Below, piece by piece: positions 45,855 through 52,860 of a DNA stretch of 64,000 nt; positions within the stretch are counted from its first letter, which is position 1, and each line of letters begins with the position of its first letter. This DNA comes from a bacterium (GTDB lineage Bacteria; Oederibacteriota; Muellerivitia; Muellerivitales; Muellerivitaceae). A model generated the notes under the pieces. The model searched no databases. It had not been told where the DNA came from and saw only the letters and a list, made by a program, of their open reading frames with translations. The stretch is from assembly GCA_035549195.1 (NCBI GenBank), contig DASZRK010000002.1, positions 62,001 to 126,000 of the forward strand, in the 5' to 3' direction. The position numbers and the translations under genes are program-made.

Positions 45855-46024
45855 GAAAAAGCCTCCGAAAAGGATTGGGAAGATTGGACGCCCGGCCGGG
45901 TCACCCCGGACCCAGGGACAAAACCAAAAGCAGGATAGCCTTTTCCGATGATTTTCCAAGTTGGAAAGAGGACGGCCCGGGCCCCCGAAAAGGGGCATGG
46001 GCCGGGAAAAAGGGCCTGCCTTCC

Positions 46025-46900
46025 CTAGGGCTGACTTGGGGGGCGGGCGTTCTGTAACTGCATCCGTTCCTGCTCGCTGAGCTGGTAGGGGAACATGGAA
46101 AAGTCCACGGCTTGGTCCCCCCCGCCCTCGGTCCCCCGGAAGCTCTGGTTCGGCGGTTCCTCATAGGCCTTGGCCATCCGCGCCCCCACGTCCAGCCCCG
46201 ACGGGTCATCCGTCCAATACCTTTCCCCGAAATTCGGGTGACTGATCCGGACCTCGTAGGCTTCCGGAGCCGAGAGCGGGGGGACGGTCACATGGTAAAA
46301 ACCCTGTTCGTTCGTGGTGGCGGTCACCGCCACGCCGTTGTTCGAGAAGACAATCACGGCGCCGCTGATGGTCGACAAATGGAGGCAGTCCAGGACCTTC
46401 CCGTGGAACTGCCAGGACGGGCCCGCGATGGTCATGGGGGTGGCGATGGGCGTGGGGGTGCAGGTCGCATCGGGATACCCGCAAGGCAGGGGGGTCCAGG
46501 TCGCCTCCGGGGACGGCTCTTCGGTGGCGTTCCCATAGATGGAGGTCGGGCGCTCGATGGGCTTCGGGGTGGCGTATCCGTCGGTCTTGGGTGTGGGCCA
46601 AAAGGAATAGAGGGCCGCTCCCAGCAGGAGCGGGACCGCGAGCAGGATCATCTTCTTGAGTGGGAACTCCTGGTATTGCCGCTCGGGCAGCGGTTTTTTC
46701 CAAGGGTTCGTTTCGGCCGGGGGCGGGTTTTCTAAAGGCGGCGCGGCGGCCGGTTCCGGGCCCGATGGCGCCGGCCCAGGTCCGGGGGTCTCCGGGGGCG
46801 GAGGCGCATTGCGTTCCCGCCATTTGGCGAAGATCAACCCGCAGGCTTCGCAGGTCTCATTGCCATCGGCTTGTTCGAACCGGCAACTGGGGCATTGCAT
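46025..46900 (-). CDS. Zinc-ribbon, single-pass membrane protein with CnaB-like domain
   Basis: A 291-residue protein with an unusual order. Residues 1-25 form a zinc ribbon (CPSCRFEQADGNETCEACG). A Pro-rich linker runs to about 80. One membrane helix follows at about 82-102 (KMILLAVPLLLGAALYSFW). A Thr/Pro linker and then a carboxypeptidase-regulatory-like beta domain (WQFHGKVLDCLHLSTISGAVI...NEQGFYHVTVPPL) lie outside. A cytoplasmic zinc ribbon joined to an external domain recalls sensor-like bacterial proteins. It has no operon partner. Confidence 0.7.
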   Translation of the reverse strand: MQCPSCRFEQADGNETCEACGLIFAKWRERNAPPPPETPGPGPAPSGPEPAAAPPLENPPPAETNPWKKPLPERQYQEFPLKKMILLAVPLLLGAALYSFWPTPKTDGYATPKPIERPTSIYGNATEEPSPEATWTPLPCGYPDATCTPTPIATPMTIAGPSWQFHGKVLDCLHLSTISGAVIVFSNNGVAVTATTNEQGFYHVTVPPLSAPEAYEVRISHPNFGERYWTDDPSGLDVGARMAKAYEEPPNQSFRGTEGGGDQAVDFSMFPYQLSEQERMQLQNARPPSQP

Positions 46901-46931
46901 TCAATGATTATAAAACGGATTTTGGGGAATC

Positions 46932-46967
46932 AAAGAAAACGGACCGGTCGTTCCTTTGGGTCCGTTT
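46932..46967 (-). terminator. Intrinsic terminator of the 47095 gene
   Basis: Minus strand AAACGGACC (46967-46959) pairs with GGTCCGTTT (46945-46937), followed by TCTTTG. A second hairpin (GAGGAT/ATCCTC, 46999-47028) lies closer to the gene. Nothing else is seen in 46901-47094. Confidence 0.65.
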
Positions 46968-47094
46968 AAGGTGAAAAGAGAGCCGATCGGGCATTCGCGG
47001 AGGATCTTTTAAACTTCGACGAAATCCTCCATTCCCGACAGGGCCAAGAGAAGGACCTATCGGGACCCACCCTAGTTCAGGGGCATGGACCTAG

Positions 47095-47532
47095 TTACTT
47101 TTGACCCCTGTTCTTCGGGTCAAAGTCCACGGTCCATTCAATGCCGTACTTATCCCGGAACATCCCGAAATAGGAACCCCAGGGACTGTCGGCGATAGGC
47201 ACTTCGATCGCTCCACCCGCCGAAAGTCCATTGAACAACCTGTCGGCCTCTTCACGGCTTTCCGCGCTGATCGCTATCTTGGACCTGTTCTCGTTTTCGT
47301 TCACCCGCCCCATCCTTTCCGGGACGTCATTGGCGATCAAAACATTCTTCCCGATGGGCAAGGCGATGTGCATTATTTTATTCGCTTCCTTCTCCGGGAC
47401 CTGGAACTCGGGGCTCGCTAGGTCCTTGAAACGGACGATCTTCGAGAATTCTCCCCCGAAGACCGATCGGTAAAATCCGAACGCTTCTTCGGCGTTCCCA
47501 TTGAAGTTGATGTAAGGATTGATGGTCGGCAT
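47095..47532 (-). CDS. VOC-superfamily protein, PhnB/YjdN-like
   Basis: A 145-residue protein beginning PTINPYINFNGNAEEAFGFY, the standard opening of PhnB-like members of the vicinal oxygen chelate superfamily. Two beta-alpha-beta-beta-beta modules are seen; the second ends in SPWGSYFGMFRDKYGIEWTVDF. Proteins of this type are annotated from bleomycin resistance to glyoxalase, but most are uncharacterised, so no reaction is assigned. GAAAGGAA precedes the ATG. Confidence 0.88.
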   Translation of the reverse strand: MPTINPYINFNGNAEEAFGFYRSVFGGEFSKIVRFKDLASPEFQVPEKEANKIMHIALPIGKNVLIANDVPERMGRVNENENRSKIAISAESREEADRLFNGLSAGGAIEVPIADSPWGSYFGMFRDKYGIEWTVDFDPKNRGQK

Positions 47533-47643
47533 AACGTTCCTTTCTCGGTCGACGTTCTTTCACGGCTTTACCCGCTTTATTCCCCAACGACACAAAAAGA
47601 GGCCACGCCTAAATCTACTTGAGGACCATCCCCATGGTACGGC

Positions 47644-49683
47644 TCATTTCAAGCCTCCGGTCATCCGGAAATGGTGGCTGAACTCAGTACTACGGACCAA
47701 TTGCGGGACCCACCCGCTTTGGACCGCCAGCTTTTCGAGGTGGGACCAATCCCGGTGCTGGAGGGCGGGGCCTTGGGCGTTCTTCTCCCCGCCGGAAGGC
47801 GCCTGGGAACGGGCCACGGAACCGACCAGCAGGCCCGGGCCCGTCCGACGGAACAGGTCCAAATGGGCGGCCACCACCCCATCGGAAGCATAGGAAAAAA
47901 GGGCCCCTTCCGACGAAACAACAACGAGGGCCGCCGGACCCAGGGACCCCAACAACCGCCGCAGCGGTTCCGGGTCCTCCCAATCATAGTCGATCACCTC
48001 CAAGGCGATTTCCAGGCCCCGCAAAGGCCCCCCGGCGGAACGGAGGGCGTCCAAGGCCCGGCTCCCGAAGGCGGGACCTTCCCTTTCCAGTTCCAGGACG
48101 TGGATCAGGACCTTCCGGTCCGACAGGAGTCGGCGCGGATCCCGGGACAGGAGGATCAGCGCGTTGAGGTTGTCGATCGCGGGCCCGCCCCCGATGTTGA
48201 TGAAGTGGAGGGGAACACCCGGATTTTCCGCCAGGGCCGGGGCCACCCCCTCGGCCTGTAAATGCGCCATGTCCCAGAGACGCAACCGCAGGGTCCGGGC
48301 CAATTCGGACGCCGCGATGCGGCGGTCGAACCATCCCCCCCAGCCCGGCTTTTGGTGTTCCGGGCCCAGTTTCATCAGATAGGTGCCCATGCCGCTCAGG
48401 AAGCTGCCCCGCGCGTCCCGGACCTCCCGGACCAGGGGCGACCCGGGCCAGAATTTCCCCATCGGTTCGATCACGGCGCGGGACAGGACCCGTTCCACGA
48501 TGCTCCGCTCCCGGCCCTTCGGCGGCGGATAGCCAAAGGAAGGGTGGGTGATATCGATGACCGGCAACTCATCCCCACCGTCCCTGGATGCGTAACAAAG
48601 ACCCGGGCGCCCTCCCTTGCCGGGGTTCCCGGCCGGGAACGGCCCCCGCGTGGACAACCGCCGCAGGATCCGGTAAGGGGCGGAACGGAAGGACCTTTCC
48701 AAGCGGCCGGCGGACGGGCGGGTGGCCGACCAGCGCATGACGGCCCAATAGGCCCGCTGAAGGATCCCCACGGTCCCGGGCCGGTGGGGCACCCGGTCGT
48801 TCAAGGCCCGCATCTTCCGGCCGAAGGTCTCCACCCATTTCCGGTTCAATTCCCGGCGGTGGGACGACCGGGTCAGGGCCAGGGAAAAGATCTGCGGATT
48901 GGTGTTGATCTCCCAGACACTGATCCGGCCCTCTGCGTCCACTCCATAGTCGACGCGCCCATAATCCACGCCGGCCAGGGCGAAAACGCGGCGCAGGAGG
49001 TCGGCATGGGGGTTCCGGGCGACATGGTCCCTTTCCTCCGCCAGCAACCCTTCCTCGAAAAGTCCCGCTTCCTTGACCTGCCAATGGGAATTGAAAAGCA
49101 CGCCCCGGGGGATCACCTCATCCCCGATGAGGAAGGCCGCGTATTTGGCATAGGCCCCGTCGGGACGTTGGGACCCCGCGTACTCGCAGGCGATCCATCC
49201 TTCCAGGTCCTTTCCCTGGGAACGCAGTTCCTCGATCCGCCGCTGGAGCGCCTCCGGGCCCTCCAACAACCCCGACCGGGCTCCATCATGGTCGTTGGCC
49301 ACGCGGAGGAAGACCGGGAACCGGACATCGGGAGGAGGGGGTTGCCACAGGGGCCAGGCCCGGTGACGGTTGATGCCTTCCGCTTGGAGCTTCCGGAGAA
49401 GTTCCAAGCGGCGCAGGGTCCGCCCAGGCTGGTTCAAGGTCACCCACCGCGCGGGATCCTCCTGCAAACGCTCCCACAGCTCCCCGGCTTGGGCCTCCTC
49501 GGCGGGGCTCAAACGCTCGATGTCGGTGAAAAGATAGACGCCCGGCGGTGGCTCGCCGGCGGAGCGCAAGAGCGGATGCCCATAGGGGACCGGTTTGAGG
49601 ATGTCCCGGTCCGGGGCTCCCGCCCCGGCCAGGTATTCGTCGATCGTATGGAGGCCGAAACGGGTGGCCAGGAAGTGGATCAT
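47644..49683 (-). CDS. Fusion of an ATP-grasp-like domain and a methyltransferase-like domain
   Basis: A 679-residue soluble protein. The N-terminal part (about 1-290) resembles an ATP-grasp ligase: FPVFLRVANDHDG, WIACEYAGSQRP and the metal-site motif VWEINTNPQIF, where Glu and Asn bind Mg-ATP in RimK-like enzymes. The C-terminal part (about 470-660) has a Rossmann glycine-rich motif LHFINIGGGPAIDNLN and VLIHVLELE, as in SAM-dependent methyltransferases. The middle (300-460) is Arg-rich. The fusion suggests activation of a carboxylate followed by methylation, but substrate and both activities are inferred. Its start overlaps the SnoaL-like gene by 4 bp. Confidence 0.65.
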   Translation of the reverse strand: MIHFLATRFGLHTIDEYLAGAGAPDRDILKPVPYGHPLLRSAGEPPPGVYLFTDIERLSPAEEAQAGELWERLQEDPARWVTLNQPGRTLRRLELLRKLQAEGINRHRAWPLWQPPPPDVRFPVFLRVANDHDGARSGLLEGPEALQRRIEELRSQGKDLEGWIACEYAGSQRPDGAYAKYAAFLIGDEVIPRGVLFNSHWQVKEAGLFEEGLLAEERDHVARNPHADLLRRVFALAGVDYGRVDYGVDAEGRISVWEINTNPQIFSLALTRSSHRRELNRKWVETFGRKMRALNDRVPHRPGTVGILQRAYWAVMRWSATRPSAGRLERSFRSAPYRILRRLSTRGPFPAGNPGKGGRPGLCYASRDGGDELPVIDITHPSFGYPPPKGRERSIVERVLSRAVIEPMGKFWPGSPLVREVRDARGSFLSGMGTYLMKLGPEHQKPGWGGWFDRRIAASELARTLRLRLWDMAHLQAEGVAPALAENPGVPLHFINIGGGPAIDNLNALILLSRDPRRLLSDRKVLIHVLELEREGPAFGSRALDALRSAGGPLRGLEIALEVIDYDWEDPEPLRRLLGSLGPAALVVVSSEGALFSYASDGVVAAHLDLFRRTGPGLLVGSVARSQAPSGGEKNAQGPALQHRDWSHLEKLAVQSGWVPQLVRSTEFSHHFRMTGGLK

Positions 49684-50093
49684 CGCAGGACGTTGGGCAC
49701 GCCCGGTAGCAGGGAAAAATGGCTATGGACGCAATGCCACCGATCCCCGCCCTTGAGGCGCAGGATCAACGTCGACCTGCCCGGCCTTTCGAACCGTCCC
49801 TGGTCGGGGGCGATGCCGGTGGAGGTCCAGGGAACGGCGATGGACAGGACCCCATGGGCGGCCTCCCCATGGACCCGCATGGCGTCCAATTGGAAAGTGA
49901 ACCCCTCGATATTGGGCCAGACCCTGGACCACTGCTCGGCCTCCAGGCCCCTCTGGCCGGCCACCGCATGGACCCGGCTTCCATATCCCAGGACATCGGG
50001 GTCGAAAAGTTCCCGCGCGGACGCGTAATCCTGTTTCCGGACGCAATCCTGGAACCGGACCAACCATTGTTCGGCGATATCCTTGGGGACCAT
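49680..50093 (-). CDS. SnoaL/NTF2-like protein
   Basis: A 137-residue protein with the alpha/beta cone fold: first helix IAEQWLVRFQDCVRKQDYASARELF, then DPDVLGYGSRVHAVAGQRGLEAEQW, and C-terminal strands WTSTGI, STLILRLKGGDRWHCVHSHFSL. Members act as isomerases, cyclases or ligand-binding proteins; DUF4440-type proteins are close. The ATGA overlap with the ATP-grasp/methyltransferase gene makes the two a single expression unit and suggests a shared substrate. Confidence 0.82.
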   Translation of the reverse strand: MVPKDIAEQWLVRFQDCVRKQDYASARELFDPDVLGYGSRVHAVAGQRGLEAEQWSRVWPNIEGFTFQLDAMRVHGEAAHGVLSIAVPWTSTGIAPDQGRFERPGRSTLILRLKGGDRWHCVHSHFSLLPGVPNVLR

Positions 50094-50221
50094 TGGGGCA
50101 TTTTATACAGGGACCGCGTTCGGCGGGAAAAATCCGGGTAAAGACGGGAAGCGGTGAAGGTCGAATGGTTCGATAAACCCACCACAAAGCCGCCCGCCCT
50201 GAGTTCATCGAAGGGTTAGCT

Positions 50222-50349
50222 CACAGGGGAAAGGACCCCCTGTGTACCCCATGAAAGGCCCTAGGGGCCCTGCCCCTATGAACCCCACGGTTCGAATCCC
50301 TATTACCACAAATAATTAAGCCCTCTCTCCCGAAGGAAGAGAGGGCTTT
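50222..50349. other. Structured repeat unit A (with terminator)
   Basis: Contents on the plus strand: perfect 8-bp hairpin CACAGGGG/CCCCTGTG (50222-50229 with 50237-50244); a second hairpin TAGGGG/CCCCTA (50262-50267 with 50273-50278); a block CACGGTTCGAATCCCTATTA then CCACAAATAATT; and an 11-bp terminator stem AAGCCCTCTCT (50318-50328 with 50338-50348). GGTTCGAATCC is T-arm-like, but no tRNA can be folded. It is repeated as unit B. Confidence 0.6.
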
Positions 50350-50392
50350 CGATAGACCAAACCCAGGGCGGTGAATGTCGAACCGCTTCGCT

Positions 50393-50521
50393 CACAGGGG
50401 AAAGGACCCCTGTGTACCCCTTTGAACGACATGGGGACCTACTGTTCCCCATACCCCTCACGGTTCGAATCCCTATTACCACAAATAATTAAGCCCTCTC
50501 TCCCGAAGGAAGAGAGGGCTT
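50393..50521. other. Structured repeat unit B (with terminator)
   Basis: It has the same CACAGGGG hairpin (50393-50400 with 50407-50414), a different second hairpin ATGGGGA/TCCCCAT (50431-50437 with 50446-50452), the same block from CACGGTTCGAATCCC, and an identical terminator stem (50491-50501 with 50511-50521). The second hairpin is conserved in position but not in sequence between A and B. The terminator also serves tRNA-Gln read from the other strand. Confidence 0.6.
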
Positions 50522-50524
50522 AAT

Positions 50525-50599
50525 TGGCTGGGGCGGTAGGATTCGAACCTACGAATGCCAGATCCAAAATCTGGTGACTTACCGCTTGTCGACGCCCCA
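50525..50599 (-). tRNA. tRNA-Gln (anticodon TTG)
   Basis: A full cloverleaf on the minus strand: acceptor stem TGGGGCG with CGCCCCA, discriminator G, and a gene-encoded CCA. The anticodon arm CCAGA-TTTTGGA-TCTGG gives anticodon TTG. The T arm is GTAGGTTCGAATCCTAC. The flanking gap 50094-50770 otherwise holds the two structured units and one AT-rich repeat. Confidence 0.95.
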
Positions 50600-50614
50600 A
50601 TGTCCGCAAAGCCG

Positions 50615-50648
50615 CGAATTTTGAATTTCGAATTCTTAATTTTTAGTT
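50615..50648. repeat. AT-rich AATTTTGAATT-type repeat
   Basis: GCGAATTTTGAATTTCGAAT then TCTTAATTTTTAG, a relative of the string at 40891, upstream of tRNA-Gln on its strand. It may contribute AT-rich promoter sequence. Confidence 0.55.
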
Positions 50649-50770
50649 AAAAACCCTAAAACCCATCGGCGGGCAGGTAATTTAATTCCCGCAACTTCCT
50701 TATGCAAGCGCCAATTATATGGTCAAAAGGGCGGTTGAGACCCGGCCCCGGCGCGTGATAGCCTGAAAAC

Positions 50771-50971
50771 ATGGAACAAGAACAGGAAACCCCCGAAAAG
50801 ATCACCCGGCTCCCTTCCCTCTTCGAGATCGGCAAGGGTCTCGCCAAGGGACAAAATTCGGAGACCGAGAAACTCTTCTACACCTGTCCCCAATGCGGCC
50901 ATGGGATGGTCACCAAAAAGTGCAAGATCGTCTGCTACCACTGCCATTACTTCATTGGCTGCGTCGAGTGA
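50771..50971 (+). CDS. Small zinc-ribbon protein (66 aa)
   Basis: A 66-residue protein with an acidic N-terminus (EQEQETPEKI), a linker, and a zinc ribbon near the C-terminus made of CPQCG and CYHC separated by about 13 residues. It could bind a nucleic acid or protein partner. Its 3' end overlaps the convergent hydrolase gene by 25 bp. It is the only plus-strand gene between the glutathione peroxidase gene and the end of the window. Confidence 0.7.
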   Translation: MEQEQETPEKITRLPSLFEIGKGLAKGQNSETEKLFYTCPQCGHGMVTKKCKIVCYHCHYFIGCVE

Positions 50972-51960
50972 CCCTTCTTTTTCTGCCCGCTCATTAGATC
51001 CTCTTCCGCCTTCGGGAAGCCGGCCTTCAGGTCCTTCAGGAACTCTTCCACCACCTTCTCATAGATCATCGGATAGAGCTTGTAGGTCTCCTCATGGCCT
51101 GCGTCGGGGATATAGATGAGCCGCTTTTGCCGGGACGTGGTGGCTTCGAAGAGTTTCCGGACCTCGTCCGACTTGGCCAGGTCGTCCTTCTCGCCCGTGA
51201 TATAGACCGTGGGGACCCCGTTCAATTGTTTCACCACCGGCAGCAGGTCCAGGTCGCTTTCCTTCAGGTCCAACCCCGTGTCCTGGTCATAGGCGGAAAG
51301 GACCTTTTGCAGGAACCCGGGAAAGGCCGCGAACTTGGCGCCCATGGTACGGCGGGAGACATAGGACTTGAGGTTGGCGAGGGGGCTGTCGGCAATGACC
51401 GATACGTTCGGCGTCCCAATGGCGGCGCGCAGGGCGCTGATGGCCCCCATGGAGAACCCGAAATAGACCAGGGGACCTTTCAACGAATGGCGGCTTTCCA
51501 AATAGGCCCGGGCCGCGGGGAAATCCTTGTATTCCAGGACGCCGCCGGCCAGGGGCGCGTCCCCGCTCTGCCCGCAGCCCCGCTGGTCGAAGATCAGGAC
51601 CTGGCATCCCAGCTTGTGGAGGAAAAGGGCCCGCGACAGCACCTGTTCCCGGTTCTTGAAGGCGCCGTGGGTCAGCAGAACCGTCGCCAGGACGTCCTTC
51701 TTCTTTTCGGCCGGGATCCACCAGGCCGCCAGGGGGATGCCGTCCGGGGTCCGGATCGTGACCGCCTCATAATGGGACATCCCATAGACCGCCGGGGTCT
51801 CGGTGACGGGCTTCTTGACCTTGGCCTTGGCCGCAATGGACTGGGCGACCTTGCCCGGCAGGACCCCATAAATGAAGTAAAGCCCGCCCAAAACCGCCAG
51901 GACCAGGACCGCCAGGGAGAGAAGCACCCAACGGTTTGGAGAGTTCCTCGTTTTAGCCAT
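50947..51960 (-). CDS. Membrane-anchored alpha/beta hydrolase
   Basis: A 337-residue protein with an N-terminal anchor (WVLLSLAVLVLAVLGGLYFIYG) and an external alpha/beta-hydrolase domain. The nucleophile is S170 in VYFGFSMGAISA; the acid is in VYITGEKDDLA and the His in YIPDAGHEE. The oxyanion-side motif is LLTHGAFKNRE. It resembles the YfhR/Bem46-like group, whose substrates are mostly unknown. It follows ispE by 10 bp, so the TPR, ispE and hydrolase genes likely form one operon. The C-terminus is basic. Confidence 0.88.
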   Translation of the reverse strand: MAKTRNSPNRWVLLSLAVLVLAVLGGLYFIYGVLPGKVAQSIAAKAKVKKPVTETPAVYGMSHYEAVTIRTPDGIPLAAWWIPAEKKKDVLATVLLTHGAFKNREQVLSRALFLHKLGCQVLIFDQRGCGQSGDAPLAGGVLEYKDFPAARAYLESRHSLKGPLVYFGFSMGAISALRAAIGTPNVSVIADSPLANLKSYVSRRTMGAKFAAFPGFLQKVLSAYDQDTGLDLKESDLDLLPVVKQLNGVPTVYITGEKDDLAKSDEVRKLFEATTSRQKRLIYIPDAGHEETYKLYPMIYEKVVEEFLKDLKAGFPKAEEDLMSGQKKKGHSTQPMK

Positions 51961-51969
51961 GTTCCACCC

Positions 51970-52860
51970 TCAAATGAATTGGACCCCATCGGGGACCGCT
52001 TGGACCGCCCAGACCTCCCAACCCCGGCCCTCGAGCGAACCGCGGATCCGCTCCGCATGGTCCGCGTTCTCCGCCACCCCGAAGACCGTCGGCCCGCTGC
52101 CGCTGACCAGGACCCCCAGGCTTCCCGCCTTCTCCAGCGCCTCCCGGACCTTTCCGATGAGGGGCAGGAGAAAAAGGGCCGCGGGCTCCAGGCCGTTGAA
52201 CAGGGCCCGGCCGATCCGGTCCGCTCTCCCGTCCGCGGCCACCTGCCGGAAAGCCCGGGCCTTCTCCCCGCCGGTGAACAACGCCTTTCCCGACCCGTAG
52301 ACCGAAGGCGTCGAAAGGCCCTCCGCGGGCTTGACCAGCACCAGGGACCAGGAGGCCGGAGAGTCCCAAGGTTCGATGATCTCGCCCCGGCCGGTCCCCA
52401 AGGCGGTGCCGCCCTTGAGGAAGAAGGCCACGTCGGAACCCAATTGGGCCGCCAGGGGTTGGAGCTTGGCCGGTCCCCACCCGGTCTTGAAAAGACGGTC
52501 CAGACCCAAAAGGGTCGCGGCCGCGTCGCTGGAACCGCCACCCAACCCCGCGGCCATGGGGATCCTCTTGGTGAGCCCGATCCGGACCCCCGGCTCCTTC
52601 CCCAGCGCCTCTTTCGCGAAAAGACGCGCCGCCCTCAGGACCAGGTTCGAATCGTCCGCCGGGAGCGTCGAGCCCTCGACCTCGAGACGGAGGCCGGAGC
52701 CGCCCTCCTCCATCCTCAGTTCGTCGTAAAGGGCGACGGCCTGGAACACCAGGGCCAGTTCATGGAAGCCGTCGGGACGCCGCCCCAGGACCTCCAGGAC
52801 CGGGTTGACCTTCGCGGGCGTCCGCAAGAACAGGTTCAGGCTCAAGAGAGAACACCCCAT
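51970..52860 (-). CDS. ispE: 4-diphosphocytidyl-2-C-methyl-D-erythritol kinase
   Basis: A GHMP-family kinase of the non-mevalonate isoprenoid pathway, 296 residues. Seen: the N-terminal substrate region TPAKVNPVLEVLGRRPDGFHEL with the usual Lys and Asn, the ATP-binding PMAAGLGGGSSDAAA, and the C-terminal VSGSGPTVFGV. The ATG at 52860 begins three bases after the edge of a palindromic repeat, so the ribosome site is poor; a TTG slightly downstream (LSLNLFLR) may be the original start. Confidence 0.93.
   Translation of the reverse strand: MGCSLLSLNLFLRTPAKVNPVLEVLGRRPDGFHELALVFQAVALYDELRMEEGGSGLRLEVEGSTLPADDSNLVLRAARLFAKEALGKEPGVRIGLTKRIPMAAGLGGGSSDAAATLLGLDRLFKTGWGPAKLQPLAAQLGSDVAFFLKGGTALGTGRGEIIEPWDSPASWSLVLVKPAEGLSTPSVYGSGKALFTGGEKARAFRQVAADGRADRIGRALFNGLEPAALFLLPLIGKVREALEKAGSLGVLVSGSGPTVFGVAENADHAERIRGSLEGRGWEVWAVQAVPDGVQFI

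Follow-up and report, generated by a model that had tools for sequence, protein, structure and literature searches.

An ATP-grasp ligase family protein fused to a probable methyltransferase-like domain and encoded in overlap with a SnoaL-like gene

Background

The closest described relatives of the protein reported here are the ATP-grasp ligases RimK, LysX, ArgX and D-Ala-D-Ala ligase (Ddl). A second point of comparison is offered by graspetide loci, which combine ATP-grasp and methyltransferase genes, and in which, according to PMC8939145, the two activities are encoded by separate genes. A third is the biosynthesis of mycothiol by Ino1 and the MshA-D proteins, whose ligase, MshC, is a CysRS-like protein; the protein considered below is an ATP-grasp protein. 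Across the literature surveyed, no system is described that associates an ATP-grasp protein with a SnoaL-like partner or with mycothiol, the amidoligase survey of Iyer et al. 2009 lying outside that scope.

Here we describe a gene pair from the window, a stretch of 64,000 nucleotides from a bacterium of a small and little-sampled phylum (45 genomes of that phylum are in our collection). It encodes a member of a ligase family that is without a curated model; in the window this member carries a second, enzyme-like domain in the same chain and has a SnoaL-like protein as its partner. Residues 1-300 of the fusion resemble RimK, LysX, ArgX and Ddl in predicted fold and metal-site motif; the second domain and the SnoaL partner set the window protein apart from these enzymes.

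Results and discussion

Layout of the gene pair and integrity of the fusion

Both genes lie on the reverse strand. The first (49680-50093) encodes a 137-residue SnoaL-like protein of the NTF2 fold, and the second (47644-49683) a 679-residue protein in an open reading frame of uniform coding character. The stop codon of the former and the start codon of the latter share the four nucleotides ATGA (49680-49683), which is the overlapping arrangement that an earlier note on this DNA had described. The longer protein comprises an ATP-grasp domain (residues 1-300; 48784-49683), a linker (residues 301-355; 48619-48783) and a C-terminal, probably methyltransferase-like domain (residues 356-679; 47647-48618). 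The linker is basic and helical and, when compared by eye, is like the basic tails in which some of the stand-alone ATP-grasp relatives end. On the 3' side of the fusion gene a gap of 111 nt is followed by a glyoxalase-like gene, a hypothetical gene and then a UDP-glucose dehydrogenase, and on the 5' side of the pair lie a tRNA-Gln gene and unrelated genes.

Two further features of the 5' flank are recorded here in their own right. Near the tRNA-Gln gene (50525-50599) there are two 75-nt copies of a repeat (50274-50348 and 50447-50521; 93% identical and 173 nt apart), each containing GGTTCGAATCCCTATTACCACA, which resembles a tRNA 3' end, with a hairpin after it; the copies may be tRNA ends that have decayed or scars left by integration. 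A 66-residue open reading frame at 50771-50971 shows a CPQCG ... CYHCHYF pattern, like that of a small zinc ribbon protein.

None of the ATP-grasp relatives that we recovered possesses the C-terminal half, and of the genomes searched none but the window's own draft genome showed the fusion; the phage records and plasmids searched, as well as the viral contigs scanned with the C-terminal domain, yielded no fusion. The C-terminal half begins where its stand-alone relatives begin, indicating that two otherwise complete proteins have been joined end to end. The same comparison supports the earlier note's description of a two-domain chain made of parts that are usually separate proteins, as both halves lie in one coding-like frame and each has aligned stand-alone relatives. 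That these are two genuine domains is well outside what chance could produce. The occurrence of the fusion in a single draft genome of 80 contigs, with no second genome among those searched, might raise the suspicion that assembly or sequencing error has united two adjacent genes. However, the frame and the GC3 run evenly through the junction (0.81 in residues 1-300, 0.91 in 301-355 and 0.80 in 356-679; 0.83-0.90 in the surrounding genes), and each part is complete when compared to its stand-alone relatives. We accordingly consider an artefact very improbable.

The N-terminal half as an ATP-grasp ligase

In an AlphaFold model computed with 12 relatives, residues 1-300 are predicted with confidence (pLDDT mostly 74-96 per ten-residue block, with two blocks at 60 and 68). 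A Foldseek search of the PDB with this region recovered RimK (2.8e-10), LysX (1.7e-9), ArgX (3.4e-9) and Ddl (6.5e-9) as its top matches, and the 50 best matches are all ATP-grasp enzymes, with DcsG also on the list. At the level of sequence, neither Pfam nor NCBIfam provided a model over its cut-off for this half, ligase models included, and a PDB sequence search likewise returned no family. The relatives, which align across residues 1-295 at 29-44% identity, come from sources that include Solimonas, a Myxococcota MAG and a genome of the same class, Planctomycetota, plasmids of Deinococcus and Paracoccus, and IMG/VR contigs.

An alignment of 27 sequences (the window protein and the 26 relatives) reveals that D54, N84, R92, P123, F125, R127, H132, E167, G242, R243, D245, E258, N260, N262 and P263 are invariant and that K204 is kept in 26 of the 27. 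The EINTNP motif (residues 258-263; 48895-48912) thus retains E258, N260, N262 and P263 throughout, with I259 and T261 conserved in 25 of the 27 sequences. By analogy, R127, H132, E167, K204, R243, D245, E258, N260 and N262 would provide the metal-binding and nucleotide contacts. Taken together, the predicted fold and the conserved motif place the window protein in the ATP-grasp superfamily, in agreement with the ATP-grasp region and the EINTNP metal site proposed earlier from the letters alone. As a separate observation, long proteins in the window's own family (L003-L005; genomes G007 and G002) have a C-terminal part with weak similarity to the ATP-grasp half, and the L003 protein contains TPR-like repeats.

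With RimK as the top Foldseek match, the enzyme could be envisaged as attaching an amino acid to some protein, which would also be the target of the methyltransferase-like half. Yet the fold equally covers ligases of small molecules (LysX, Ddl and DcsG), and the neighbors of the relatives are sugar genes (see below), so that a RimK-like modification of proteins appears improbable. The ligase half is most likely a carboxylate-amine ligase acting on a small, perhaps amino-sugar, substrate.

The C-terminal half

Stand-alone relatives of the C-terminal half were found in five genomes, one of the window's phylum (G037) and four of a single class (G714, G893, G959 and G962), and they align with it across residues 353-674 at 36-45% identity. 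In methyltransferases an acidic residue is usual after strand 1 in motif I. When a profile of the six members of the domain was compared by hhalign with a Methyltransf_25-like protein, which owes its methyltransferase label to a Pfam match just below the cut-off (Methyltransf_25, 8.7e-6), a probability of 93.0% (E 3.4e-7) was obtained for an alignment that starts at motif I and reaches the C terminus. In this alignment the INIGGGPA segment (residues 495-502; 48178-48201) matches the motif I segment IDLACGPC of the methyltransferase, and the members of the domain have N or S at the position usually held by the acidic residue.

These results suggest that the C-terminal half is probably a SAM-methyltransferase-like domain. 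The alternative is that it adopts another fold, or is a non-catalytic substrate-binding domain, with the ATP-grasp half active alone. This would accord with the non-canonical motif I, with the failure of all Pfam methyltransferase models on the six members (0 of 6), with the lack of a methyltransferase among PDB sequence matches and of any Pfam or NCBIfam family over cut-off, and with the unusable fold predictions, both for the domain as a single sequence (pLDDT 36.8) and for this half in the model computed with 12 ATP-grasp relatives. Against it stands the hhalign probability itself, as the controls, a UDP-glucose dehydrogenase and another methyltransferase-like protein (L069), each reached only 0.3%; we regard this alternative as somewhat unlikely. 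Of the SAM-binding, methyltransferase region that the earlier note had proposed, the distinct domain is borne out by the stand-alone relatives and a methyltransferase affinity is indirectly supported by the hhalign result; Pfam, the PDB and the fold models gave no support for that affinity.

The SnoaL-like partner

The 137-residue protein passes the Pfam cut-offs for both SnoaL_3 (1.5e-7) and SnoaL_2 (8.2e-7), which places it in the SnoaL-like/NTF2 family under which it had previously been named. Unlike usual SnoaL genes, the window gene overlaps an ATP-grasp gene, and we saw no polyketide genes near it. The pairing recurs in Planctomycetota: at two loci (L013 and L038/L021), the only matches to the window SnoaL among 337 genomes of that phylum, a SnoaL gene 38-43% identical to the window's overlaps an ATP-grasp gene, and in L013 and L038 the overlap is of 4 nt, as in the window. 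In the tree of the 27 ATP-grasp sequences, the window protein does not group robustly with the other SnoaL-linked members. The same SnoaL subfamily is present on eight alphaproteobacterial plasmid records, in the three annotated ones of which no ATP-grasp gene adjoins it. A SnoaL-like gene of this subfamily also occurs without ATP-grasp on an IMG/VR contig of 137,914 bases (L072; IMGVR_UViG_3300019487_000004, 2327-2695).

Comparison with graspetide loci

In its combination of an ATP-grasp ligase with a methyltransferase-like activity the window protein resembles the graspetide systems, to which the earlier note had linked it. Were it a maturase of this type, the ATP-grasp half would link side chains of a ribosomal precursor peptide through ester or amide bonds, and that peptide would be modified further by the methyltransferase half. 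One relative gives a weak match to the graspetide model TIGR04187 (E 0.028), but its score of 13.6 bits is far below the cut-off of 350, and the window protein itself has no match at E up to 1. Furthermore, no short open reading frame in 45900-52000 is conserved in 24 related loci, the matches seen being shadow frames of genes and marginal ones to unlinked regions, and there is no evident leader peptidase or exporter adjoining the genes. The window protein also differs from graspetide systems in that its domains are fused. The proposed link is thus not supported, whereas the accompanying remark that no precursor peptide is evident nearby is borne out, and we consider a graspetide-type maturase quite improbable.

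Gene neighborhoods of the ligase relatives

The contexts of the stand-alone ATP-grasp genes point to sugar metabolism. Family 2 glycosyltransferase (GT2) genes are found near them in L013, L052 and L054 according to Pfam, and in L037, L045, L055 and L056 when read by eye; the Solimonas gene has GNAT and GT1-like genes nearby, and that of L015 lies inside a plasmid polysaccharide cluster. In two Planctomycetota loci (L040, genome G265; L041, genome G226) the ATP-grasp gene is placed directly 3' of Ino1 with a 4-nt overlap, accompanied by a histidine phosphatase and a GT4 gene and, in L041, by a PIG-L gene; in a third (L044, genome G253) it is associated with GNAT, PIG-L and GT4 genes. On viral contigs (L051-L056) some of the genes that flank the relatives belong by their matches to phage structural families (phrog_3287 and phrog_2941 in L054), and GT2 is near; one of these contigs, L052, has two ATP-grasp copies. 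These genes look like phage or prophage cargo.

The sets of L040, L041 and L044 are reminiscent of mycothiol biosynthesis in that a GT4 gene is accompanied by Ino1, PIG-L or both, and one set also has GNAT. All nevertheless fall under the mycothiol cut-offs: the NCBIfam model closest to the L041 PIG-L protein is mycothiol MshB (38 bits against a cut-off of 224) and that closest to the L040 Ino1 is mycothiol INO1 (444 against 638). No MshC (TIGR03447) was found over cut-off in seven genomes, including the window's and those of L040, L041 and L044; one of the control genomes passes the model. Such mycothiol-like neighbors together with the want of an MshC over cut-off suggest that in these relatives the ATP-grasp protein may act as the ligase of a pathway for an amino sugar, a role that for the window gene itself we can only infer. 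No glycosyltransferase, Ino1 or PIG-L gene adjoins the window pair, and at the two PIG-L genes of the window genome, which are on other contigs, a mycothiol-like cluster was sought and none was seen.

Proposed function

Given that the ligase relatives occur among sugar-building genes, the window set probably makes a modified amino sugar or a similar small molecule. We propose that the fusion is a two-domain tailoring enzyme, a small-molecule ATP-grasp ligase with a methyltransferase-like domain, whose SnoaL partner acts on the same molecule, and give this reading a probability of about 0.5. Using ATP and Mg2+, the ATP-grasp half would convert a carboxylate to an acyl phosphate and couple this to an amine, the amine being most likely that of an amino sugar or another small molecule. 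The C-terminal half would carry out SAM-dependent methylation of the ligase product or of its precursor, and the SnoaL-like protein would bind or further convert the same small molecule; the gene layout, the ATP-grasp fold with its conserved motif, the end-to-end fusion and the recurrent SnoaL pairing are shown by the data, whereas methylation, the nature of the substrate and the role of the SnoaL protein are inferred.

A more far-reaching version, which we put forward tentatively and consider rather unlikely as a whole, is that the ATP-grasp family comprises amino acid-amino sugar ligases that replace MshC in mycothiol-like pathways and also serve in bacterial and phage sugar-decorating cassettes, the window protein being its methyltransferase-fused and SnoaL-paired version.

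Conclusions

The ATP-grasp family described here extends across several phyla, plasmids and phage-like contigs, yet no curated model recognizes it over its cut-off. Its neighbors (Ino1, GT4, PIG-L, GNAT and GT2) predict a substrate in a manner that is specific and testable, and the fusion and the overlap with the SnoaL gene suggest which activities share one pathway. If the prediction is true, the family would bring another type of ligase to the synthesis of amino-sugar conjugates, low-molecular-weight thiols among them.
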